64,000 nt of DNA, from contig NZ_LT629693.1 of the NCBI RefSeq assembly GCF_900099825.1, positions 5,529,001 through 5,593,000 on the forward strand, read 5' to 3'. Made by a program: the position numbers and the translations under genes. The notes under the pieces were generated by a model that was not told the DNA's origin, searched no databases, and saw nothing but the letters and a program-made list of their open reading frames with translations. Shown here piece after piece: positions 28,222-42,089 of the stretch (positions are counted from its first letter, which is position 1; the number at the start of each line of letters is the position of its first letter). This DNA is from Bradyrhizobium ottawaense (GTDB lineage: Bacteria; Pseudomonadota; Alphaproteobacteria; Rhizobiales; Xanthobacteraceae).

Positions 28222-30495
<2,274 letters not shown>

Positions 30496-30506
30496 CCGTT
30501 TACTTT

Positions 30507-30625
30507 CGTCATTGCGAGCGAAGCGACTTGTTCGCCGAAGCTCAACGAGCGAAGGCGGAAGCAATCCATCGCACGGCGTAAAGAAAGAATGGATTGCTTC
30601 GTCGCTGCGCTTCTCGCAATGACGA
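30507..30625. repeat. Palindromic repeat, family C
   Basis: CGTCATTGCGAG at one end and CTCGCAATGACG at the other. GCAATCCAT and ATGGATTGC pair in the middle, with GAAGCGAC-type arms. It fills the space between the convergent ligA and the small membrane-protein gene. Confidence 0.8.
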
Positions 30626-30979
30626 CTAATTCAGCTTCCTCGGCCCGTCACTGACCAGTCTCAGGTCGATCCTGCCGATCAGCTCCGAACGATGAGCCTC
30701 GGCGGCGTTGATGGCGGCTGTGGTCTGTTGCAAGGTGCTAGTGTTCGATCCGAGCGACACGATACCGCCCAGCACCGCAGCGATCGATCCGAGGGCAGCG
30801 GTGGCGCCGGACCCGAACAGGCCGAGCATCATCACCAGCAGCAAGAGGGCGCCGGCAGCGATCGCTGTCTTCGACACCATGATGATCTTCCGGCAGCGTT
30901 CGGCGCGCTCGGCAAGCGCCTCGAGCCGTGCTTCAAGCTGTGAAATCTCGTCGGTCGGGTCGTCTTCTTCAGCCATCAT
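30626..30979 (-). CDS. Small coiled-coil membrane protein
   Basis: 117 aa. An acidic N-terminus and a short coiled coil (ISQLEARLEALAERAERCRK) lead to two hydrophobic segments, AIAAGALLLLVMMLGLFG and TAALGSIAAVLGGIVSLG. A polar tail, QTTAAINAAEAHRSELIGRIDL, follows. No family is recognised. It is convergent with ligA and divergent from the Gly-rich precursor gene. Confidence 0.6.
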   Translation of the reverse strand: MMAEEDDPTDEISQLEARLEALAERAERCRKIIMVSKTAIAAGALLLLVMMLGLFGSGATAALGSIAAVLGGIVSLGSNTSTLQQTTAAINAAEAHRSELIGRIDLRLVSDGPRKLN

Positions 30980-31006
30980 GTCCAGGATTGAGCCCCATTA
31001 CACGTC

Positions 31007-31054
31007 ATTCCGCGGCAAGCTCCAACGGCGCTTCGCGCGGCATGACGATCGCGT
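31007..31054. repeat. Partial copy of the histidine-kinase 3' end / palindrome
   Basis: Read on the minus strand it gives IVMPREAPLELAAE and a stop. The histidine kinase ends IVVPREAPPELAAQ and a stop at 32787-32829. Identity over about 55 bases is roughly 80 percent by eye, in the same orientation, so the two copies flank the precursor/radical SAM cassette. This copy also forms a long hairpin (CGTCAT... ATGACG arms), so it may instead be a member of a palindromic repeat family. Confidence 0.55.
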
Positions 31055-31278
31055 TGTCCTGCCAGATGAAAATGATTTTGCAAATGATTCAATGGGCATT
31101 CCCGCTCCCTATGATGCCGCTGTAAGCCGATTGCGTCCGGGCGCGATCCGTCAGATCTCCAGGATTGCGCCGACACATTGTCGCTGCAATAAAATGGGTA
31201 TAAGATCTCAGTCACTCGGCTTTTTCGGATACCGGCCTTTCGTTCGCTCCTTGGTTGCATCGCAAAAAGGACCACAAC

Positions 31279-31530
31279 ATGCCGATTACGACGCTGAAGG
31301 TTCTCTCGACTATCCTGCAATTGCATGGACCGGGCGCAACAATCCAGAGCGATCACCAGGGCATCGACGCGTTGCTGAGTGATCTGCGCGGGCAAAATGC
31401 TGCAGAGCCGACCCAGGTCTATTTTCGGCGCGGCGGTTTCCTTCGAGGCGGAGGCTACGGCGGCGGCTTTCGCAGAGCGGGATACGGCGGTGGTGGCGGG
31501 TTCCGCAGGGGCGGCTTTATCCGTTACTAG
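31279..31530 (+). CDS. Gly-rich RiPP precursor candidate with FxR motifs
   Basis: 83 aa from ATG 31279. The first 47 residues look like a leader: MPITTLKVLSTILQLHGPG, then a polar segment ending GQNAAEPTQV. Residues 49-83 are a Gly/Arg/aromatic core containing five Phe-X-Arg triplets (F49RR, F54LR, F64RR, F75RR, F80IR) separated by Gly runs, and ending FIRY. Aromatic-X-polar triplets in Gly-rich tails are the known substrates of three-residue-cyclophane radical SAM enzymes (GRRM/Xye-type triceptides). The radical SAM/SPASM gene starts 12 bases downstream. The assignment as a modified peptide is inference; no homologue was searched. Confidence 0.7.
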   Translation: MPITTLKVLSTILQLHGPGATIQSDHQGIDALLSDLRGQNAAEPTQVYFRRGGFLRGGGYGGGFRRAGYGGGGGFRRGGFIRY

Positions 31531-31542
31531 GTCTGCTTCGTA

Positions 31543-32769
31543 GTGGTGTCCCCACCCGGTATCGGCATGTCGGCTGACGCTCAAGATGCTTTGCCAGATG
31601 CTTTGGGCTTCCAGGAGCAGCCAATCTCGCAGCTGTTGGTCAAGGTTGCTTCGAGATGCAACATCGACTGCTCTTATTGCTACTGGTTCCGCGACGCGTC
31701 GGTTTATGACAAGCCGAAGCTGATGAGTTCTGAGGTGCTGCTTCAGTTGTTGCAGCGCATCGAAGAGCACGTCGCCAGGCATTCCCTGATCGATTTTCCC
31801 ATCATTCTGCATGGCGGCGAGCCCCTGCTGTGGGGAATCGATAATTTTCACCGCATTGCGGCGGCGTGCGAAGGCATAACGTCACGAACGGGCTGCGACA
31901 TACCCATCGCGGTGACCACCAATGGCGTGTTGATCGACGATGAGTGGCTGAACTGTTTTGAGGCTCGCAACATCCAGGTCGCGATCAGCCTGGACGGTCC
32001 GGAACATATTCACGACCTGCACCGGAAAACGTTTCAAGGCACCGGCACCCACGCCGCGGCAGAGCGAGCCGCCCGGATGCTGGCGTCACGCGACATCGCC
32101 ATGAGCGCGCTGGCCGTCTGCAATCCCGCTTACCCGCCAAAGGAATACGTCGAATTTTTCGCGAGTTGCGGAATTGCCAACTACGACATCATGATCCCTG
32201 ATGCGACGGTGGATGAGACCCCCGCATCCGTTGGTTCGTTCTACAAGGGGCTGTTCGATCTGTGGCTGGAGGCCAACCGCAGCAAGCCCACGGTGAATAT
32301 CCGGATCATTGCCGACATGATCACCGCCATGCTCGGCAACAATTCGCCGACCGAGGGCGTCGGCTACAAACCCATCGAACTCTGCACGGTCATGACTGAC
32401 GGTTCGGTCGAGGCGCATGATGTGCTGCGGATTGCCGGCGACGGATTCACGACCACGAAGTTCAACATTTTCGAGCATGCGATCGACGACGTCAGGAACG
32501 AGCCCCGCTGGAAAGCCGCGCGTGATGCTTCCATCCAGCTTTCCGGGAAATGTCAGCAGTGCAAGTTCATGAACGCCTGCGGCGGCGGCTATCTTCCGCA
32601 TCGCTTCTCCAGGAAGAACGGATATGACAATCCGTCAGTCTATTGCGACGACCTCTATTCGATGTTCGAGAACATGCAGTCCGTGCTTGAAAGCCACCTT
32701 TACGTCAGCAAGCCGGACGGGGAACGTCTCGGCGTGCGGGACGCGCTGGCGGGGCGCGTAGCAGGTTAA
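31543..32769 (+). CDS. Radical SAM/SPASM RiPP maturase
   Basis: 408 aa from GTG 31543; ATG 31567 is the alternative start. The radical SAM cluster motif is C39-N-I-D-C-S-Y-C46 (CX3CX2C), followed by the SAM-binding HGGEPLL. The C-terminal SPASM-type region has C281 (ELCTVMTDGSV), C337-Q-Q-C340, C346 in FMNACGGGYLPHRFS, and C368 in NPSVYCDDLY. CGGGYLPHR-NPSVYC is typical of the Xye/Fxs/Grr peptide maturases that form C-C crosslinks. It is paired with the Gly-rich precursor just upstream. Two sampled 60-base lines of this gene have about 50-52 percent G+C against about 70 percent in neighbours such as recN, suggesting transfer. No exporter or protease is adjacent. Confidence 0.85.
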   Translation: MVSPPGIGMSADAQDALPDALGFQEQPISQLLVKVASRCNIDCSYCYWFRDASVYDKPKLMSSEVLLQLLQRIEEHVARHSLIDFPIILHGGEPLLWGIDNFHRIAAACEGITSRTGCDIPIAVTTNGVLIDDEWLNCFEARNIQVAISLDGPEHIHDLHRKTFQGTGTHAAAERAARMLASRDIAMSALAVCNPAYPPKEYVEFFASCGIANYDIMIPDATVDETPASVGSFYKGLFDLWLEANRSKPTVNIRIIADMITAMLGNNSPTEGVGYKPIELCTVMTDGSVEAHDVLRIAGDGFTTTKFNIFEHAIDDVRNEPRWKAARDASIQLSGKCQQCKFMNACGGGYLPHRFSRKNGYDNPSVYCDDLYSMFENMQSVLESHLYVSKPDGERLGVRDALAGRVAG

Positions 32770-32786
32770 TCGGGTTCCGTTACGCG

Positions 32787-34271
32787 TCATTGCGCGGCAA
32801 GCTCCGGCGGAGCCTCGCGCGGCACCACGATCCGGATTTTCGTGCCCGCGCCGGGCCTGGTCTCCAGCTGGATCCGGCCACCCAGACGATTGGTCACGAT
32901 GTTGTGGACGATGTGCAGTCCGAGGCCGGTGCTGCCGTGGTCGCGCCGGGTCGTGAAAAACGGGTCGAACACCTGGCGCCTGACCTCCGGGCTCATGCCG
33001 CAGCCGTCGTCGGAAAACAGTACTTCGATGTTGTTCTTGCCCGACGCTTGCGCCGCAATGTGGACGGATCCGCGTTCGCCATCGGGAAAGGCATGCACCG
33101 CGGAATTGAGAACCAGGTTGGTGATCACCTGGCCGTAGGGCCCGGGATAGCTGTTCATCGCCAGATCGCCTTCGCATTCGACGTCGACCACAAGGTCTCT
33201 GCGCAGGCTGAACCGCAGTCCCTTGACGACCTGTTCGGTGACCTCGCCGAGATCGAAAGCCCTGCGGTCTGAAATGTTGCGATCGGTCGCCACCTGCTTG
33301 AACGACTGGATCAGGTCGATGGCATGATTGAGGTTGATCATGACTTGCGATGCCGCTTCCCGGTTCGCGGCGACGAATTCAGTCAGGGTCGAGCGGCGCA
33401 CGTCGCCCGAGGCGACAACGGCTTCAAATCGATCGGTCTTTTCGATCAGCGTCGAGGCAACCGTCAGGCTGGTGCCGATCGGGGTGTTGATCTCGTGCGC
33501 AACACCAGCCACCAGCCGTCCCAGCGCGGCGAGCTTCTCGGTCTGCACCAGACTGTCCTGCGCGGCGCGGAGGTCGTCGAGCGATTGCGTCAGTTGCTGG
33601 GTGCGCTCCTGCACCTCGGCGAACAGCCGCGTATTCTCGATCGCGATCACCGCCTGACCGGCAAAGGTCCGCAGCAGTTCGACCTGCGTCTTCGGAAACA
33701 GCTGCGGTTCGAGCCGCATCACCGCGATCGCGCCGATCGCGACATCGTCGCGCAGCATCGGCACGACGAGGATGCTGCGATAGCCGGAAGTTCGCTGCAG
33801 GTCGCTGTATCCGCCCGAGATCAGCACATCGGGCTCGTGCACGACCCGGCGCTCGCGCAGCGCGACCGAGATCAGGTTCTTGCTGGCGAGCGGGGCAGGG
33901 TAGGCCTTCCGCACCGCCGCCACCGATTCCGGAGAGAACTTGTCGTGCGCGACCAGGTGGACCTGCTCGCCGTCGCGGCGATAGACGGCGCTCAACACGC
34001 TCTGACAGAGCCGTGCGGCGTTCTTGACGATCCGGTCGAACACCGGCTGCAAATCCGTTGGCGCGTCCGCAATCAGGGTCAGCACCTCGGCCGTCGCGGC
34101 CTGCCGCTCCCTGGCCTCCCCGAGTTCGCGGGCAAGCCGTTCAGCGTCGGCCTTCGCAGAACCGCTGATTTTTGCAGGCCGAGACACGCGCGCAGTTTTG
34201 GGCGCAACGCTGGGCTTTCGCGTCGTCGTCTTGCGGCTCCGCGATTTGTTGGGTCCGCCGGCTGCTTTCAT
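32787..34271 (-). CDS. GAF-domain sensor histidine kinase
   Basis: 494 aa from ATG 34271 (MKAAGGPNKSRS), preceded by GGGGAGG. A basic, Lys/Arg/Thr-rich N-terminus and a coiled coil (ADAERLARELGEARERQAATAEVL) lead to a GAF domain (about 95-260; GYRSILVVPMLRDDVAIGAIAVMR). The dimerisation H-box LGRLVAGVAHEINTPIGTSL follows. The ATPase domain has QVITNLVLNSAVHAF (N), DDGCGMS (G1) and FDPFFTTRRDHGSTGLGLHIV (F/G2). No membrane segment, so it is cytoplasmic. No response regulator is adjacent. It is convergent with the radical SAM gene, 17 bp apart. Confidence 0.92.
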   Translation of the reverse strand: MKAAGGPNKSRSRKTTTRKPSVAPKTARVSRPAKISGSAKADAERLARELGEARERQAATAEVLTLIADAPTDLQPVFDRIVKNAARLCQSVLSAVYRRDGEQVHLVAHDKFSPESVAAVRKAYPAPLASKNLISVALRERRVVHEPDVLISGGYSDLQRTSGYRSILVVPMLRDDVAIGAIAVMRLEPQLFPKTQVELLRTFAGQAVIAIENTRLFAEVQERTQQLTQSLDDLRAAQDSLVQTEKLAALGRLVAGVAHEINTPIGTSLTVASTLIEKTDRFEAVVASGDVRRSTLTEFVAANREAASQVMINLNHAIDLIQSFKQVATDRNISDRRAFDLGEVTEQVVKGLRFSLRRDLVVDVECEGDLAMNSYPGPYGQVITNLVLNSAVHAFPDGERGSVHIAAQASGKNNIEVLFSDDGCGMSPEVRRQVFDPFFTTRRDHGSTGLGLHIVHNIVTNRLGGRIQLETRPGAGTKIRIVVPREAPPELAAQ

Positions 34272-34498
34272 TGCCTCCCCCGAGTCGAGCCAGGCTATGA
34301 TTCGGGATATCGTAGCGGACGAACTGGCCATGGGAAATGGGTTCGCGGCCGGCATCTGGGGGCTGCACCGCCCAACCCGTAGACTGTCCGACGGGCAAAT
34401 CACCCCCGGATATGGGTCCAGCCCTTCGCAAAAAAATAAATCGCTGGCGCCGTCGGGCAAATCAGTCGTTCAACTCCCGCCATCCTGTCCCACCAGAG
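34272..34498. other. Upstream region of the histidine kinase
   Basis: About 227 bp lacking a gene. GACGGGCAAATCA occurs at 34391-34403, and GTCGGGCAAATCA at 34452-34464, a direct repeat. The block CCCGCCATCCTGTCCCACCAG at its end appears continuous with 35808 onward once the IS110-type element is removed. Confidence 0.4.
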
Positions 34499-34655
34499 CA
34501 ACTGTGCTGAAGTAGACCGGTGATCGGCTGGCCTCAAGGCTGGCGCGAGGCGCGCCCCCGCCTTCGGCGGCTTACGGCCTTGACGCCGTCCGCTCCCCGG
34601 TCTGTTGGCTAGGCATGCGCTCGGTCGAGGACCGAGCGCGGTGAAGTGCGCTCGC

Positions 34656-35618
34656 TCAATTCAGTGCGTAACGGCTGGGATCCCATTTCTGCCGGCGTGC
34701 GATCATTGTGTTGAGGATGATGATCAGCTTTCGCATGCAGGCGACGAGCGCAACCTTCGGCTCCTTCCCCTTGGCAAGTAGCCGTTGATAGTAGGCCTTG
34801 AAGACAGGATTGTTCTGTGTGGCCGCGCCGAGGCACGGCATGTAGAGGGCGTTTCGGACCCAACGGCGGCCGCCCTTGATGTGGCGTTCGCCGCGGCGCT
34901 TTCCGCTATCATCGTCATAAGGGGCAACGCCTAACAACGCCGCGGCGATCTCGTCGCTCACTTGGCCAAGCTCCGGCATTCCAGCAATGAGGTTCGCTGA
35001 GCTCGTTTCGGCAAAGCCCGGCACGCTCTCGACGATCTCGGCGCGTTCGGCAAGATGAGGTGTGGCCCTGACCTGGGCCGAGATCGCGACTTCGAGCTTG
35101 GCAATTTCCTCGAGCAAGCTCTTCAAGATACGGGTCCGCGCTTTCCGAGCCTGTCCTGGTGCAGCATGCTCGTTTTGAGCTTCCAGTCGTATCTTGAGAT
35201 CGACCAGATTGAGACGAGCTTTCACCAGCGCCTGCAGCTCTTCGCGCGCGGCATCGTGCACTTGGCCCGGCGCCTCGCTGAACGTCTCTGCGAACCAAGC
35301 GATCATCTCTGCATCAATCGTATCGTTCTTGGCCAGGCGTCCGGCCGACTGCGCAAAGCTGCGGACTCGCTTGGGGTCGACGATCCGTACGGCGATGCCG
35401 GCCAGACGGAGCACCTTCCCCCAATCGCGCTCATAGCCGCCGCTGGCCTCCATCACCGCCCTGTTCACCTTGTGCTTGCGAAGCCAGGCAACCAGCTTGC
35501 GATGACCCTGGGCAGTGCTCGGATACGTCTGCCGCAGCGCCAACTCGCGAATGCACGCATCGACCTTGTCCTTTGCTACATCGATGCCGACGACAACGAG
35601 ACCATTTTGTGCCATCAT
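34656..35618 (-). CDS. IS110-family transposase (DEDD recombinase)
   Basis: 320 aa. The N-terminal RuvC-like domain carries the acidic residues in VVVGIDVAKDKVDA, AVMEASGGYERD and AKNDTIDAEMIAWFAE. The C-terminal transposase_20 part has EIVESVPGFAETSSANLIAGMPELG, and later DDSGKRRGERHIKGGRRWVRNALYMP, the conserved serine-recombinase-like segment. It appears intact. IS110 enzymes are now known to be guided by a structured bridge RNA from the element's non-coding end. Confidence 0.93.
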   Translation of the reverse strand: MMAQNGLVVVGIDVAKDKVDACIRELALRQTYPSTAQGHRKLVAWLRKHKVNRAVMEASGGYERDWGKVLRLAGIAVRIVDPKRVRSFAQSAGRLAKNDTIDAEMIAWFAETFSEAPGQVHDAAREELQALVKARLNLVDLKIRLEAQNEHAAPGQARKARTRILKSLLEEIAKLEVAISAQVRATPHLAERAEIVESVPGFAETSSANLIAGMPELGQVSDEIAAALLGVAPYDDDSGKRRGERHIKGGRRWVRNALYMPCLGAATQNNPVFKAYYQRLLAKGKEPKVALVACMRKLIIILNTMIARRQKWDPSRYALN

Positions 35619-35807
35619 CCACTCCCTTCCTTGCTCGGTACGGGCTCAACGGCCCTTGCAACTGTTCGGGTTGAGGAAGACACCGGAGCTGTCCCTCGCT
35701 CTCATACAGGCTCTGCCGCTTTGGGGCGTTACGGGCTCAGTTCCAGCAACGGGCGGTTCTGCTTCAACCGCCCGTTCGCACATTCTGCCAGTTTTTGCCG
35801 ACACAAG
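35619..35807 (-). ncRNA. Candidate bridge-RNA region of the IS110 element
   Basis: The roughly 189-bp non-coding end upstream of the transposase contains a strong hairpin. ACGGGCGGTT (35749-35758) and AACCGCCCGT (35766-35775) form a perfect 10-bp stem with a 7-base loop. Other GC-rich arms lie nearby. The size and place match the bridge-RNA-encoding left end of IS110-group elements. This is inference from location and structure only. Confidence 0.35.
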
Positions 35808-36363
35808 GGGCGTTGGCCATCGTCGCGAACGAGGGGCGGGGAGCGGTGGACGTGAGGCAGCGACTGACGAGCGCGGCACTTGCGTACGGCGAAATCGTTT
35901 GGGTCCGACGCCCCGGTGCTGGCGTCAAGTTGGCGGAAGCGAAAGCTGAAGCTGATGATGGTGGCAAGAAAGCCGGTCACCAGGACGATCTCGTATAAGC
36001 CGTAAAGCCATTGCGCAGGGAAGGCCGGGTGTTCTCCGCTGAACCTGTATGCTCGTGTGCAGCATTCCTTGATGCACATTGCACGCGAGACCGCGGGTGC
36101 AGCGCGCATCCGGTCTTCCCTGCGCCCTCTGATTTCGAGGGCAAGGTTTTCTTGCAAAACTCCGGGCGCACCGCGCCGCGAGAATGCAGACGCTTACCCT
36201 CCCCTGGTGGGGTCCGAGACGAGCGAAGCTCGCTCGTGGGTCGACGTCGCGAACAGTGCCCGAGTGGAGAGATCACCCCACCCCGTCGAGCATTGCGCTT
36301 CGCTTCATGCTCGCCGACCCTCCCCCTCCAGGGGAGGGTGAAGCAAGGCGAGAAACGATGGCT
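35808..36363. repeat. Gene-free repeat-rich stretch
   Basis: About 550 bp with no convincing gene. Bases 35808-36160 resemble a long intergenic repeat that I recall from many Bradyrhizobium genomes; a spurious minus-strand frame there reads QWLYGLYEIVLVTGFLATII. Bases 36190-36350 form a separate palindromic element with TACCCTCCCCTGG at one end and CCAGGGGAGGGT at the other. No promoter or RNA is recognised. Confidence 0.5.
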
Positions 36364-37647
36364 CTACAGCATCCCCGACTCTTCCTCCTCCGCCTGCTCG
36401 ATCAACGCCTCGCTGACGATCACGGTCCGTCGCGGCACGATGAAGATCATGGTCGAGGCGCAGGCGATCGAGATGACGAAGATCGCGGCCGTCAGCGGCA
36501 GCGTGGTGGTGGAGTGGCCGCCAAGATAGGCGCCGAATTGCGAGACCAGGGCGCCTACGCCCTGTTGCAGGAATCCCATGGCGCCGGAGGCGGTGCCGGC
36601 GGCTTCGGGGCGGACGCTGATGGCGCCGGCCGCGGAATTCGCCATCACGAAGGCATTGGCGACCATCACGATCATCTGGGTGCCGAACAGGATCGACGGC
36701 GCCTGGTTGATCCCGGTGACGCTCCAGACGACGTTGAGCAGGCTGCCGCCGAGCTGCAGCGCCAGTCCGAACCAGATCAGCCGTTCCAGCGCGTGGCGCG
36801 GCGCGAAACGCACGCAGAACAGATTGCCGACCAGATAGGCAAATGCCGTGGTCGCAAACCACGCGCCATATTCGGCGCTGTTGCGGCCCATCTGCGTCAC
36901 CACGATGTAGGGCCCGCCGCCGGCAAAGGCGAAGATGATCTGCGACGCCAGCACCTGGCACAGCACATAGCCGATGAAGGCGCGGCTTCGGATCAGGCTG
37001 CCGACGTCGCCGCGAAAGCTGGAGCCGTCGATGCGGTTGCGGCGGGTTTCCGGCAGCATGAATGCGATCATGATCGTGATCGTCAGCGACGCCGCGGTGA
37101 TCAGATAGAAGATCGCGCGCCAGCCGAACGCGGTTTCCAACAGGCCGCCGGTCAGCGGCGACAGCATCTGCGCGATCATCATGACCGCGATGACGAGGCT
37201 GATCATGGAAGAGATGCGGTCGCGGCTGTAGAGATCGCGGATGATGGCGCGGCTCACCACCATGCCGGAAGCGCCGCCGAGCGCCTGCAGGAAGCGGGCG
37301 GCGATCAGTTGTGGCAGCGTCTCGGCGAAAATGCAGGCCGCACTGGCGGCGACCATCAGGCCGATGCCGCCCAGCAGCACCGGGCGGCGGCCGAACCGGT
37401 CGGACAACGGTCCCATGATGATCTGCGAGCAGGCGATGCCGACCATAAAGAGCGACACCGTCATCTGTGCGACGGAGATGTCGCGGCCGAACGTGGTCGC
37501 CAGTACCGGCAGCGCCGGCACCAGCATGTACAGCGAGATCGGCGCCACGCCCGTCATCAGGACGAGCAGCAGCAGCATGGTCCGGGAATTCGCGGGGCCG
37601 CCTGCCTCCGTCGTAGCGCCAGGCGGCTGGCCCATCACGCCATGCAT
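36364..37647 (-). CDS. Bcr/CflA-type MFS drug efflux transporter
   Basis: 427 aa with about twelve membrane segments. Motif A appears as GPLSDRFGRRPVLLGGIG after helix 2, and the family start MLVPALPVLATTFGRDISVAQMTVSLFMVGIACSQI matches Bcr/CflA (DHA1) transporters. RFLQALGGASGMVVSRAIIRDL is also typical. A proton-driven exporter of drugs or metabolites; the substrate is unknown. The last residues are acidic (QAEEEESGML). It sits between two insertion sequences. Confidence 0.92.
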   Translation of the reverse strand: MHGVMGQPPGATTEAGGPANSRTMLLLLVLMTGVAPISLYMLVPALPVLATTFGRDISVAQMTVSLFMVGIACSQIIMGPLSDRFGRRPVLLGGIGLMVAASAACIFAETLPQLIAARFLQALGGASGMVVSRAIIRDLYSRDRISSMISLVIAVMMIAQMLSPLTGGLLETAFGWRAIFYLITAASLTITIMIAFMLPETRRNRIDGSSFRGDVGSLIRSRAFIGYVLCQVLASQIIFAFAGGGPYIVVTQMGRNSAEYGAWFATTAFAYLVGNLFCVRFAPRHALERLIWFGLALQLGGSLLNVVWSVTGINQAPSILFGTQMIVMVANAFVMANSAAGAISVRPEAAGTASGAMGFLQQGVGALVSQFGAYLGGHSTTTLPLTAAIFVISIACASTMIFIVPRRTVIVSEALIEQAEEEESGML

Positions 37648-37869
37648 TCAGGTCTGATCCTCTGTGTGGTCAGAACTGTAGCGTTATCGCCGTGGGCGAA
37701 TACGGCCGTTTCGGCATGCGGGTATGCTGATTTGGGGAGGCGAGGGACGATGTTTCGCCCTGCGCAACATATGCCGATGTCATCACCCGCGAAGGCGGGT
37801 GATCCAGTATTCCAGAGGCAGTAGTGATTCAGATCGATAGGCCGCGGCGTACTGGGTCCCCTGCCTTCG

Positions 37870-38883
37870 TGTTTGGTCCCGGAAGATTGGTTGGACGGAA
37901 TCGGTGTAGAACGAGGCGTGGCCTTTATCAGGGAGCGCCTCGAGTCATGGAACTGAACCTGCACGCCAATGCTACGACGACGCCAAAGACGCGCGGCTAC
38001 ATCCAGCGCAGCAGGAAATCAGTCGTCCAATTGGCCGCGGAACTCGGGGTTAGCGAGACCACCATTCGTCGCTGGCGCGGACGAACGACGGTCGCGGACC
38101 GCTCGCATCAGCCGCGCAACCTGACGACCAGCCTGTCGGCTGTGGAAGAGAGGGCGGTTTGCGAGCTGCGGACGTCGCTGCAATTGCCGCTGGATGACAT
38201 CGTCGAGGTGATGCAGCGCTGCATTAATGCCAAGCTATCCCGCAGCGCCATCCACCGCTGTCTGCAGCGAAATGGGATTAGTCGGCGTCCCAAGCCGGAC
38301 AAGCCAAAGGCCGGCGTCTTCGAGACCGCCAGTGTTGGGTTCATCCATATCGACCTCAAGCATCTGCCGGCCCTGCAGCGTCGCACGAGTTATGCCTTTG
38401 TCGCCATCGATCGCGCCACTCGCTACGTCTATGTCGAGATCCACTCCAGGCGGGACAGCGAGACTGCGGCCGGCTTCCTCCAGCGCTTCCTGGCCCACTT
38501 CCCGCATGATGTTCACACCATCCTGACCGACAATGGCGCCGAGTTCACCGACCGTTTCGCCGTCGACAAGAAGAACAAGCCGCCCGGTCGGCCTTCCGGC
38601 AGTCATCCCTTTGATCGGCTCTGCAAGCAACACGGCATCGACCATCGCCTGACCAAGCCCTACCACCCGCAGACCAACGGTTTGGTCGAGCGCTTCAATC
38701 GCCGCATCGCCGAAGCCATCGGCCGCGAGGAAAAGCGCGGCAGCGCCCGCCGCACATTCGCCGACCATGCCGATCGCGACGCCTTCCTCGGCAAGTTCGT
38801 CCACGATTACAATCGAACCCGCCTCAAATGCCTTGGATACAAGGCCCCCATCCAGGCCCTCACCAATCTTCCGGGACCAAACA
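37870..38883 (+). mobile_element. IS481-family insertion sequence
   Basis: 1014 bp bounded by perfect 21-bp inverted repeats, TGTTTGGTCCCGGAAGATTG plus one base at 37870-37890, and its complement at 38863-38883. The flanking direct repeats CCTTCG at 37864-37869 and 38884-38889 are a 6-bp target duplication. It contains one transposase frame. The perfect ends and duplication suggest a recent insertion. Confidence 0.95.
37947..38883 (+). CDS. IS481-family transposase, no stop codon within the element
   Basis: About 312 codons from ATG 37947 (MELNLHANATTTPKTRGYI). The helix-turn-helix is RKSVVQLAAELGVSETTIRRWRGR. The rve catalytic core has its DDE residues in GFIHIDLKHLP, ILTDNGAEFTDR and GLVERFNRRIAEAIGRE. 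The frame crosses the right inverted repeat (LTNLPGPNT) without a stop and, at this site, stays open to 41378 antisense to the M24 peptidase. Elements of this kind may rely on flanking DNA for termination. The core itself appears intact. Confidence 0.88.
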
Positions 38884-38906
38884 CCTTCGCAGGGGACGAC
38901 AGATCC

Positions 38907-40742
38907 CTAAATCACCAACAGCGCCGCCGTCGCTTCATCCAGCCACAGCTTCGTCGCGTTGTCGTCGAGATGCGGGCGCACCTCGCGGTTAACGCGGCTG
39001 TGGTAGTCGTTGAGCCATTTCAGTTCCGTCGGGCTCAACATCGCCACGTCGATCAGGCGGCGATCGATCGGCGCCAGGGTCAGCGTCTCGAAGGCGTTCA
39101 CCGGCTTCTCGGCACCGACGATATCGGCGCCGACGACGAGTTCCAGGTTCTCGATCCGGATGCCGTAGGCGTCGGTCTTGTAGTAGCCGGGCTCGTTCGA
39201 CAGGATCATGCCGCGCTTCAGCGGCGTGGTGCCGAGTTTCGAAATCCGCGCCGGGCCTTCGTGGACCGACAGATAGCTGCCGACGCCGTGGCCGGTGCCG
39301 TGTTCGAAATCGAGGCCGGCCTGCCAGAGATGTTGCCGCGCGAAACTGTCGAGTTGCGCGCCGGTGGTGCCGTCGGGGAAAACCGCGCGCGCAATCGCGA
39401 TATGGCCGCGCAGCACGCGGGTGAAACGGTCGCGCATCTCTTCGGTCGGTTCGCCGATCGCGATGGTGCGGGTGACGTCGGTGGTGCCGTCTTCATATTG
39501 CGCGCCGGAATCGATCAGCAGCAGATCGCCGGAGACAATCCGCCGGTTGCTCTTGCGGGTGACGCGGTAATGCACGATGGCGCCGTTCGGCCCGGTACCG
39601 GCGATGGTGGGGAAAGAAACATCCTTCAGCGCGCAGGTCTGGCGGCGAAAGGTTTCCAGCGCCTCGACGGTGTCGATTTCGGTCAGCGCGCCCGAGGGCG
39701 CCTCGCGGTCGATCCAGGCGAGGAACCGCACCAGCGCCACCGCGTCGCGCTGGTGCGCGGTGCGTGTGCCCTCGATCTCGGTGAGGTTCTTCACCGCCTT
39801 CAACAGGCTGACCGGATCGTTGCCGCGCACCGGCTTGCCGCCGGCGGCCGCAATCAGGCGGCTCAGCGCATCGGCCGCGGTGGCGGTGTCGAGCGCGATG
39901 GCCGCGCCGCGTCTGGCGAGCTCCATCAGCGCCGGCGTCAGCGCCTCGGGGTCGCGGACGTCGGCGGACTGTTCGAGATGATGGCGCGACAGGTTCGACA
40001 GCTTGCGGTGATCGACGAACACGGTGGGGCGGCCTTCCTTCGGCACCAGCGCATAGGACAGGGGCAGCGGCGTATGCGAGACGTCGGCGCCGCGGATGTT
40101 GAAGGTCCAGGCCACCGCGTGACTGTCCGACAGTACCAGCGCATCGACGCCGAGCTTGTTGATCTCCAGCCGGATCCGCTTGAGCTTCTCGGCTTCGATC
40201 TCGCCGGAAAACTGCGTGCCGTGGATGGCGACCGGGCCGAGCGGCGGGGCCGGTCGCTCGGTCCAGACCTGGTCGAGCGGGTTGGTCTCCACCGCCACCA
40301 GTTCCGCGCCGGCCTTGGCGCAGGCGGCGGCGAGGCGTTCGGCTGCCGCCGAAGTGTGCAGCCAAGGGTCAAAACCGAGGCGGTCGCCGGCCGAAAGGTG
40401 CCGCCCCAGCCAGTGTTCCGGCGGCGGATCGACCAGCGGTTCGATATGCCAGGCCTTGCGGTCGACCTGTTTGGCGGCCTGCAACGTGTATCGGCCGTCG
40501 ACGAATACCGCCGCCTCATGGGCGAGGGCGATGGCAAGGCCGGCCGAGCCGGTGAAGCCGGTCAGCCAGGCCAGCCGCTCTTCCGAGGGCGCTACATATT
40601 CATTCTGCTGCTGATCGGCGCGGGGAATCACGAATCCCGTCAGCTTCCGGCGCGCCAGCTCCTCGCGGAAGGCGGCCAGCCGCGCGCTCAGCGCCACGCC
40701 GCTTTCGGGCTCTTCGAATGTCTGGAAATGGGCTTCGAACAT
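38907..40742 (-). CDS. pepP: M24 family Xaa-Pro aminopeptidase
   Basis: 611 aa with two N-terminal creatinase-type domains and a C-terminal pita-bread peptidase domain, the three-domain eukaryote-like aminopeptidase P layout. Metal ligands: LLIDSGAQYEDGTTDVTRT (two Asp), GTGHGVGSYLSVHEGP (His), ILSNEPGYY (Glu) and RIENLELV (Glu). Removes N-terminal residues that precede proline. The stop codon is only 7 bp from the family A repeat that carries the IS481 element, so the insertion just missed this gene. Confidence 0.93.
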   Translation of the reverse strand: MFEAHFQTFEEPESGVALSARLAAFREELARRKLTGFVIPRADQQQNEYVAPSEERLAWLTGFTGSAGLAIALAHEAAVFVDGRYTLQAAKQVDRKAWHIEPLVDPPPEHWLGRHLSAGDRLGFDPWLHTSAAAERLAAACAKAGAELVAVETNPLDQVWTERPAPPLGPVAIHGTQFSGEIEAEKLKRIRLEINKLGVDALVLSDSHAVAWTFNIRGADVSHTPLPLSYALVPKEGRPTVFVDHRKLSNLSRHHLEQSADVRDPEALTPALMELARRGAAIALDTATAADALSRLIAAAGGKPVRGNDPVSLLKAVKNLTEIEGTRTAHQRDAVALVRFLAWIDREAPSGALTEIDTVEALETFRRQTCALKDVSFPTIAGTGPNGAIVHYRVTRKSNRRIVSGDLLLIDSGAQYEDGTTDVTRTIAIGEPTEEMRDRFTRVLRGHIAIARAVFPDGTTGAQLDSFARQHLWQAGLDFEHGTGHGVGSYLSVHEGPARISKLGTTPLKRGMILSNEPGYYKTDAYGIRIENLELVVGADIVGAEKPVNAFETLTLAPIDRRLIDVAMLSPTELKWLNDYHSRVNREVRPHLDDNATKLWLDEATAALLVI

Positions 40743-40930
40743 GGCCTGAACACTCTAGGGGTGGGGGGAGCGGTCCGCAATCCGATCCAGATCAACTCGA
40801 TCTGGCATAATCTATGCTTGAATTTTGTGGTCCGCGTTAGATCGGACGGAACGGGTTGCGGTGCAAGCCGTTCGTCTAGGGTACAGGGGGGCTCCAGGAG
40901 TGTCTCAACTCAACGAAGAGGGGATACACG

Positions 40931-41119
40931 ATGCCTGCTTTCACGTTTGAGAAGATTTCGCCGCCGGTCCACCGCGCTCCGATTCCGCCGATTGCGAACA
41001 AGAAGCAGCGTGGGGTCATCGTCCAGATGCTGGACCGGTTTGTCGAGGCCCGCGTCAAGCGCGGCGTGCCCGATGATAAAAGCGTGCTCGCCCGCAATCC
41101 CCACCGACCTCCCGATTAG
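40931..41119 (+). CDS. Conserved-looking small protein
   Basis: 62 aa from ATG 40931 with GAGGGG nine bases upstream. MPAFTFEKISPPVHRAPIPP is proline-rich and extended; a basic amphipathic segment, RGVIVQMLDRFVEARVKRG, follows. No family name can be given. A good ribosome-binding site and a terminator just downstream support a real, separately transcribed gene. The stop codon lies in the loop of a hairpin (41108-41126). Confidence 0.72.
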   Translation: MPAFTFEKISPPVHRAPIPPIANKKQRGVIVQMLDRFVEARVKRGVPDDKSVLARNPHRPPD

Positions 41120-41150
41120 CGGGAGGCCAATTTCATCATCTGCGAACGTG

Positions 41151-41182
41151 CGGGTCCGGTTCATGCCGGACCCGTTTCGTTT
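41151..41182 (+). terminator. Intrinsic terminator after the 62-aa gene
   Basis: Nine-base stem CGGGTCCGG / CCGGACCCG, loop TTCATG, then TTTCGTTT. It lies between the small gene and the convergent prmA. A second hairpin, CCTCCCG-attag-CGGGAGG, precedes it at 41108-41126. Confidence 0.85.
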
Positions 41183-41195
41183 AGGCCCGGCGCAG

Positions 41196-42089
41196 TCATT
41201 TGACACGGCGCAGCAGCAGGCTGCTCCAGCCATCGATGCGCAGATGCCGCAGCGGGACCAGTCCCCGGGCACGGTACGCGGCGATGACGGCGGGCGCCTG
41301 ATGCGTCAGCAGGCCCGACAGGATCACCAGCGCCGACGGCGCCAGATGCCGCGCCATCGGCGTCGCCAATTGCCGTAGCGGGTTGGCGAGGATGTTCGCC
41401 AGCACCAGGTCGAACGGACCGCGTTGCGCGAATTCGGGTGCAGCGAATCCGGTGGCGTGGATCATCTGCACGAGATGGCCGGTCCGGTTCGCCCGCGCAT
41501 TCTCGCGTGCGACAACAACCGAGAGCGGGTCGATATCGCTCGCCAGAACGCCCTCCTGCAGCGCCTTGGCCGCAGCAATCGCCAGCACGCCGGTGCCGGT
41601 GCCGAGATCGAGCACGCGCCGCGGACGCCAGGCCTTCAGCACATGGTCGAGCAGCAGCAGGCAGCCCCGCGTGGTGCCGTGATGGCCGGTGCCGAACGCC
41701 AGCGCCGCCTCGATCTCGATGCCGAGCTTGTTGGGCGCGATGCGGTCGCGGTCGTGCTGGCCGTGGACGACGAAGCGGCCGGCCGGGACCGGGACCAGAT
41801 CTTCCAGGGTTGCCTTGACCCAGTCCCTGGCTTCGACCGTGTCGAAAACGATGCCGCCTGCGGCCTCGGCACCGGCGGCGTTGGCCACGAGTTCGCGCAC
41901 CAAAACCTGGTCGGGCGGATCGGCGAAATAGGCCGTAACGTCCCAGCGCCCCTCCGGCCGCTCGAACGCGGCGATTGCGGCTTGGCCTTCAAAAAAAATT
42001 TCAGTGAGGACGTCGACCACGCGTTTGGCGGTGGATTCGTCCCCGATCGCAAAGCCGGCGCGATGGGTGGGAGGGGTGGTGTAAGTCAT
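41196..42089 (-). CDS. prmA: Ribosomal protein L11 methyltransferase
   Basis: 297 aa from ATG 42089 (MTYTTPPTHRAGFAI). The SAM-binding motif VLDLGTGTGVLAIAAAKAL and the PrmA-typical LAFGTGHHGTTRGCLLLLD precede DIDPLSVVVARENARANR and DLVLANILANPL, the NPPF-like catalytic region. The N-terminal L11-recognition domain is present. Methylates ribosomal protein L11. Confidence 0.93.
   Translation of the reverse strand: MTYTTPPTHRAGFAIGDESTAKRVVDVLTEIFFEGQAAIAAFERPEGRWDVTAYFADPPDQVLVRELVANAAGAEAAGGIVFDTVEARDWVKATLEDLVPVPAGRFVVHGQHDRDRIAPNKLGIEIEAALAFGTGHHGTTRGCLLLLDHVLKAWRPRRVLDLGTGTGVLAIAAAKALQEGVLASDIDPLSVVVARENARANRTGHLVQMIHATGFAAPEFAQRGPFDLVLANILANPLRQLATPMARHLAPSALVILSGLLTHQAPAVIAAYRARGLVPLRHLRIDGWSSLLLRRVK

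Follow-up and report, generated by a model that had tools for sequence, protein, structure and literature searches.

The 64,000-nucleotide stretch of Bradyrhizobium ottawaense DNA analysed here (the window) contains a cassette of two neighbouring forward-strand genes. The first (31279..31530, + strand) encodes an 83-aa putative precursor peptide with a conserved leader (residues ~1–40), a short linker and a Gly-rich core (~46–83). The second (31567..32769, + strand) encodes a radical SAM enzyme with a SPASM-type C-terminal Cys site, probably a three-residue cyclophane synthase. A first-pass annotation had placed the enzyme 12 bases after the precursor, which presumes an alternative GTG start at 31543 (+ strand). 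This spacing is probably off: an ATG at 31567, which leaves a gap of 36 bases, is the likelier start because its Met is kept in the six other Bradyrhizobium enzymes aligned and because translation from it gives 400 aa, the same size as the closest database enzyme.

Both Cys motifs ascribed to the enzyme were found as claimed (positions counted from the GTG start). These were CX3CX2C (31657..31680, + strand; C39, C43 and C46), the ligands of the radical SAM [4Fe-4S] cluster, and a CX2CX5CX21C auxiliary cluster site (32551..32646, + strand; C337, C340, C346 and C368) in the region CGGGYLPHR...NPSVYC. All seven Cys were invariant across 15 aligned enzymes, giving a radical SAM core and one auxiliary four-Cys site; a full SPASM domain has two auxiliary sites. 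The precursor and the enzyme each had one match in their own genome (E up to 1e-3). Upstream of the cassette, positions 31171..31278 (+ strand) accompany it in some genomes and probably hold its promoter and ribosome-binding site, with a GGA just 5' of the precursor ATG. A promoter and terminator scan returned no sigma-70-type promoters and no terminators, and no RNA elements were detected at Rfam gathering thresholds in positions 30400–33000.

Motifs and conservation of the precursor

The Gly-rich tail with F49RR, F54LR, F64RR, F75RR and F80IR was borne out in coordinates, length and motifs. All five Phe residues of the 83-aa protein sit in FxR, and the core contains 16 Gly and 8 Arg among its 38 residues. 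When this 38-aa core was shuffled, five FxR motifs were reached in 20 of 200,000 permutations, and one of 735 stop-to-stop frames of 40–250 aa in the window carried at least five. The precursor matched no Pfam or NCBIfam family; six of its relatives compared with NCBIfam yielded a single match, below cut-off (P0103 to GrrA, 14 bits, cut-off 31).

Conservation was examined in 144 distinct precursors, namely that of the window, those from 24 genome loci and the best 120 of 672 database relatives (a sample that thereby leans towards the query). The core was counted from a point 24 residues beyond the QLHG start. At the second position past Phe it had Arg in 703 of 729 cases, Lys in 21 and another residue (Ser, Ala or Glu) in 5, such that 724 of 729 core Phe were followed by Arg or Lys at +2. 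Five motifs were present in 136 precursors, six in 6 and four in 2. Across 17 precursors from the genus (the window's and those of 16 of the 24 loci), the five Phe columns were invariant despite synonymous changes. The leader had a pN/pS of 0.26 and the core one of 0.27; the Phe columns gave 0 and, within the core, the ratio was 0.24 at +2, 0.30 at +1 and 0.35 for the remainder. Purifying selection thus acts on the precursor. Arg at +1 varied no more than the +2 residue in three of the five motifs (in two of the three, +2 was sometimes Lys), and these motifs by themselves therefore give no preference for +2. The remaining two motifs had a variable +1 (A, V, G, L or I), with Phe and the +2 Arg or Lys kept. 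The leader was conserved among relatives; the linker between leader and core varied, and the precursors of the 24 loci therefore measured 83–126 aa. Y69 and Y83 were invariant across 31 precursor proteins. Y48-F-R50 was ruled out as a motif, since Y48 is Ala in several relatives and the motif thus cannot be essential.

Pairing with the enzyme and genomic surroundings

In a survey of 195 genomes of the genus (enzyme threshold E up to 1e-60, precursor threshold E up to 1e-3), 34 genomes had the enzyme and 33 the precursor, and these were the same genomes except for G003, in which a 42% identical enzyme directly follows a 187-aa protein with repeated Tyr-x-Arg. The pair shared contig and strand in 33 of 33 genomes, with the matched stretches 15–218 bases apart; four enzyme matches (G010, G012, G043 and G083) had one in-frame stop within the matched stretch, beside open frames of 405–541 aa. 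A search of genome contigs, from which 80 loci of 129 relatives were kept, gave 24 Bradyrhizobium loci (74–90% identity), and the precursor lay directly upstream of the enzyme in all 24; the two sets share species and are not independent. Among 397 genomes of the order, the enzyme was found in six, five of them from the same genus (own genome included) and the sixth G258, whose 42% identical enzyme is preceded by a precursor with repeated Tyr-Arg-Arg, for which a reading with F-Y-R also fits. No FxR-rich protein was found by script in 8 distant loci examined (L027–L034, of 56). The expectation that homologues always sit beside an FxR protein thus held inside the clade, where no enzyme lacking such a neighbour was found, and, as expected, did not extend beyond it to the 42% identical enzymes with Tyr-x-Arg precursors or to the eight distant loci. 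The pairing of precursor and enzyme is specific.

The unit common to these loci was ~1.5–1.6 kb, and the flanking genes differed among them (flanks of at most 6 kb, often ended by contig ends). Seven window neighbours, three of which we take from their sequences to be ligA, recN and bamD and the others being a DUF2721-like gene, a histidine kinase gene, an IS110-type transposase gene and an MFS gene, were absent from the 24 loci at E 1e-20. At E 1e-8 a single ligA match appeared (L018), and the enzyme and precursor controls were recovered in 24 of 24. Besides the pair and its antisense frames, no frame family of at least 100 aa occurred in more than 6 of the 24 loci, and nine flanking frames compared with Pfam matched SDR, CrcB, ClpS, MFS, chorismate synthase and nucleotide cyclase families, with three giving no match. 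That no exporter or protease adjoins the cassette, as the first-pass annotation had it, was confirmed, because its two adjoining genes are the DUF2721-like gene and the histidine kinase gene; no exporter or protease gene was common to more than 4 of the 24 loci, the maximum being an MFS gene in 4. Since the flanking genes differ, the cassette looks like a free-standing two-gene module without a dedicated exporter or protease.

DNA similarity spanned window positions 31171 to 32761 in L003, L004 and L005, which have other surroundings, and began at 31232 in L086 and at 31265 in L019. Within the fetched stretches, G102 kept the window's gene order on both sides (30008–34195). In that of G138 the left side was kept and the end of the enzyme gene was joined to sequence like 36068–37557, and this genome therefore lacks the segment with the kinase and IS110 genes. 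The lower G+C described at first was confirmed (cassette 0.587, window 0.637), and the cassette fell in the 1st percentile of equal window tiles. Third-position G+C was 0.741 in the enzyme gene; the DUF gene had 0.78, the IS110 gene 0.71, and recN, ligA, the kinase gene and the MFS gene 0.796–0.895. The nearby insertion sequence is also real, being the IS110-type transposase gene at 34656–35618. Differing surroundings and low G+C fit, and do not prove, horizontal movement of the two-gene unit within the genus, and in this sense the proposed acquisition by transfer gained support.

Several further features were observed around the cassette. A 56-base direct repeat, 84% identical, flanks it (30995–31050 and 32777–32832), and a 66-base query detected just these two copies in the own genome (E up to 1e-3, with 40 of 47 candidates scored). 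As read from the sequence, the histidine kinase gene ends within the right copy, and the left copy, on the minus strand, would specify a protein tail like that of the kinase; the repeat may therefore be the remnant of a duplication. The segment missing after the cassette in G138 (32787–36067) holds the histidine kinase gene, with GAF domains, and the IS110-type transposase gene. In the draft assemblies G001, G012 and G024 a related kinase gene and the cassette were on different contigs, and G023 had the kinase without the cassette. About 5 kb from the cassette, the first third of an open frame at 37824–41378 matched an integrase-core (rve) transposase domain.

Kinship of the enzyme and known cyclophane systems

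Cyclophane-forming families led the NCBIfam profile matches of the enzyme, all below the curated cut-offs. The best profile was YhhB (NF041707; 307 bits, cut-off 445), followed by FxsB (TIGR04269; 275 bits, cut-off 370) and XyeB (TIGR04496; 184 bits, cut-off 450); GrrM/OscB (TIGR04261) scored 128 bits (cut-off 310) and an anaerobic sulfatase maturase profile 151 bits (cut-off 349). Membership of the Xye, Grr or Fxs families, to which the first-pass annotation had likened the enzyme, is thus rejected by the curated cut-offs, and YhhB membership was rejected both by score and by position outside the YhhB rows of the tree. Searched against 385 genomes of the class, the YhhB model gave 6 matches at E up to 1e-50, among them the window's enzyme; 2 of the 6 exceeded the cut-off. 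A defence-system role was also considered and rejected, as there were just two matches to viperin models, both weak (37.8 and 25.8 bits) and both to the radical SAM core. The best solved relative was the radical SAM domain of ChlB (PDB 9gm3; 195 bits), with which the cluster Cys align. Judged from its sequence, the enzyme has the features of the triceptide-maturase class, namely CX3CX2C with a SPASM-type site, closest kinship and an adjacent aromatic-x-partner precursor.

In a 44-row tree, which contained no GrrM row, 11 enzymes with FxR precursors formed one clade (100/99), sister to a 10-row clade around L143 (100/100). The joint 21-row clade (100/99) stood apart from YhhB rows, HaaA-linked FxsB, XyeB and others, and the YhhB rows fell in two groups, neither of which joined it; the branching order outside this clade is unsure because several outer rows have long branches. 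The sister systems (L143:5142–6998 and L142:1483–3242) resemble the cassette in having 42% identical enzymes with a precursor of repeated aromatic-x-Arg directly upstream, and differ from its Phe-x-Arg in carrying Tyr-x-Arg (L143) or mainly Tyr-Arg-Arg (L142). This motif evidence comes from two precursors, one of which (L142) also allows a reading with F-Y-R. By reading, the sister precursors have a twin-Arg-like N-terminus, with model matches that were weak and below cut-off, and their leaders showed weak similarity to the cassette leader (P 0.0043, probability 8%). The L143 enzyme had 2,762 database relatives (E up to 1e-3), not all of which belong to its clade; the best 120 of these comprised one own entry and others 65–78% identical, nearly all from jgi, ena or lgn sources. 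A search for the sister-clade enzyme in 398 genomes of the phylum gave one new match (G1202, 29% identity), and a search in 12 genomes of the family of G258 gave G258 alone.

Carbon-carbon bonds between residues i and i+2 are reported for XncB, OscB, MscB and YhhB in PMC11002830. According to this paper, XncB joins Trp to Arg or Asn, OscB joins Trp to Asn or Asp, XncB or OscB joins Phe to Asn, MscB joins Phe to Ser, and YhhB joins Tyr to Arg and His to Arg, the beta carbon of Arg being linked to C3 of Tyr or C2 of His. The Arg partner is therefore precedented, as YhhB is reported there to crosslink both Tyr and His to Arg. Partners that are all Arg, proposed at first as an unusual variant, are less unusual than thought in view of this enzyme; the near-invariance of the Arg partner in the cassette precursors (703 of 729) is supported.

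The YhhA/YhhB system resembles the cassette in its radical SAM enzyme directly after a short precursor, its C-terminal aromatic-x-Arg and its Arg partner. The cassette precursor has five Phe-x-Arg in a Gly-rich tail, whereas YhhA has a [YF]xR...RHNR ending; fetched YhhA-type precursors end in strings such as YDRMHHRHNRS, and one has FDR. Similarity between the cassette leader and YhhA leaders was not significant. The oxygenase YhhC, seen in the Vibrio locus, was not found among the scanned neighbours of the cassette. ChlB (PDB 9gm3 and 9gmc) has the same CX3CX2C and the same four-Cys auxiliary site as the enzyme, and is called a multiple cyclophane synthase in a title cited by PMC12636437; it differs in its substrate and in its fusion to a HEXXH hydroxylase domain, which PMC12636437 describes for the characterised protein. 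FxsB/HaaB, XyeB/XncB and GrrM/OscB are three-residue cyclophane enzymes like the one proposed here, and have other precursor types.

Elsewhere, related plasmid enzymes of Calothrix (L163), Polymorphobacter (L166) and Spirosoma (L171) adjoin small proteins without an obvious aromatic-x-Arg repeat, which suggests other substrates in the wider group. On two Rhizobium plasmids (L158:2070–6333 and L159:2733–6288), long repetitive proteins with many MHDQTHSEGGG-like copies lie directly before a protein with a HEXXH motif and a radical SAM enzyme related to that of the cassette; these repetitive proteins are possible giant multi-core RiPP precursors.

Proposed chemistry and its alternatives

We consider it probable that the two genes make up a self-contained RiPP module of the Bradyrhizobium group, with a three-residue cyclophane synthase that would form up to five Phe-Arg crosslinks. 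The enzyme would bind the conserved leader of the precursor and cleave SAM at the CX3CX2C cluster, and the 5'-deoxyadenosyl radical would abstract a hydrogen from the beta carbon of the residue at +2 of each Phe, an Arg or, rarely, a Lys. The resulting carbon radical would bond to the Phe ring, with the auxiliary four-Cys cluster accepting the leftover electron. Repetition along the Gly-rich core would give up to five Phe-Arg three-residue cyclophanes, each with a loss of 2 Da, and the product would be a rigid, strongly cationic peptide, whose export and leader removal, if any, would be left to host proteins encoded elsewhere. We infer the Phe-Arg bond, the number of crosslinks and the binding of the leader from the sequences. 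The Phe side and the Arg partner are each precedented, and the fivefold Phe-Arg pattern is the combination proposed here.

The first-pass view of the pair as a RiPP precursor and a cyclophane-type maturase is supported by profile kinship, cluster Cys, strict adjacency and motif conservation. Cyclophane formation is argued for because YhhB, FxsB and XyeB lead the profile scores, the ChlB Cys align, the genes adjoin in 33 of 33 genomes and 24 of 24 loci, Arg or Lys occupies +2 after 724 of 729 core Phe, the Phe columns are invariant, the two sister precursors seen have repeated aromatic-x-Arg, mainly Tyr-x-Arg, and PMC11002830 reports Tyr-Arg and His-Arg bonds for YhhB. Against it, every cyclophane-family cut-off shown was missed, three motifs do not favour +2 over +1, the leader has no significant similarity to YhhA leaders and a weak one to those of the sister clade, the sister motifs come from two precursors (one with the F-Y-R reading) and the module contains no processing genes.

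These points leave some room for another radical reaction on the same peptide, such as epimerisation at or beside Arg or a different crosslink, with FxR serving as a recognition mark. Profiles, here all below cut-off, give relationship and not reaction; FRR could act as a repeated binding element; Arg at +1 is invariant in three motifs of the 17 precursors; and the core Tyr residues Y69 and Y83 are conserved too. We nevertheless regard such a reaction as unlikely, given that the three top-scoring named families are cyclophane formers, that Y48-F-R50 cannot be essential and that Phe and the +2 Arg or Lys stay in the two motifs in which +1 varies. A thioether is excluded because the precursor has no Cys.

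An ordinary Gly/Arg-rich protein that binds nucleic acid or a surface, beside an enzyme that acts on something else, would account for the composition of the core and for the missing processing genes; it is very improbable in view of the strict co-occurrence and adjacency of the pair, which is found in differing surroundings. The least probable reading is an alphaproteobacterial form of the cyanobacterial GrrA/GrrM pair. A Gly-rich repeat precursor adjoining a radical SAM enzyme, together with the weak GrrA match of P0103, recalls that pair, but the GrrM score lies far below both its own cut-off and the YhhB and FxsB scores, and neither the window precursor nor five of the six relatives scanned matched GrrA (TIGR04260).

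Within the preferred reading of Phe-Arg crosslinking, we tentatively suggest, as a possibility that falls short of probable, that the enzymes form a clade of cyclophane synthases dedicated to Phe-Arg, which would act for five or six rounds on each Gly-rich peptide and would have parted from a Tyr-Arg sister by a change of aromatic residue with Arg kept. Since the module has neither protease nor exporter, the crosslinked full-length protein may itself be the working product, in the cell or the envelope.

A literature search gave no cyclophane peptides in Bradyrhizobium and no Phe-Arg crosslink by titles and abstract beginnings among the matches listed; an earlier description in the two founding triceptide papers is possible. 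The genus comprises legume symbionts and soil bacteria, and the cassette is patchily distributed in it, with 33 of the 195 genomes surveyed having the pair. If the proposed chemistry is true, it would add a precursor family not named by NCBIfam, Pfam or PADLOC, together with a clade of enzymes that score under the cut-off of every named cyclophane family. Sister clades with the same Arg partner and either Phe or Tyr as the aromatic residue make the choice of aromatic directly testable by peptide swap, and five crosslinks from a two-gene unit would constitute a compact system for rigid cationic peptides.
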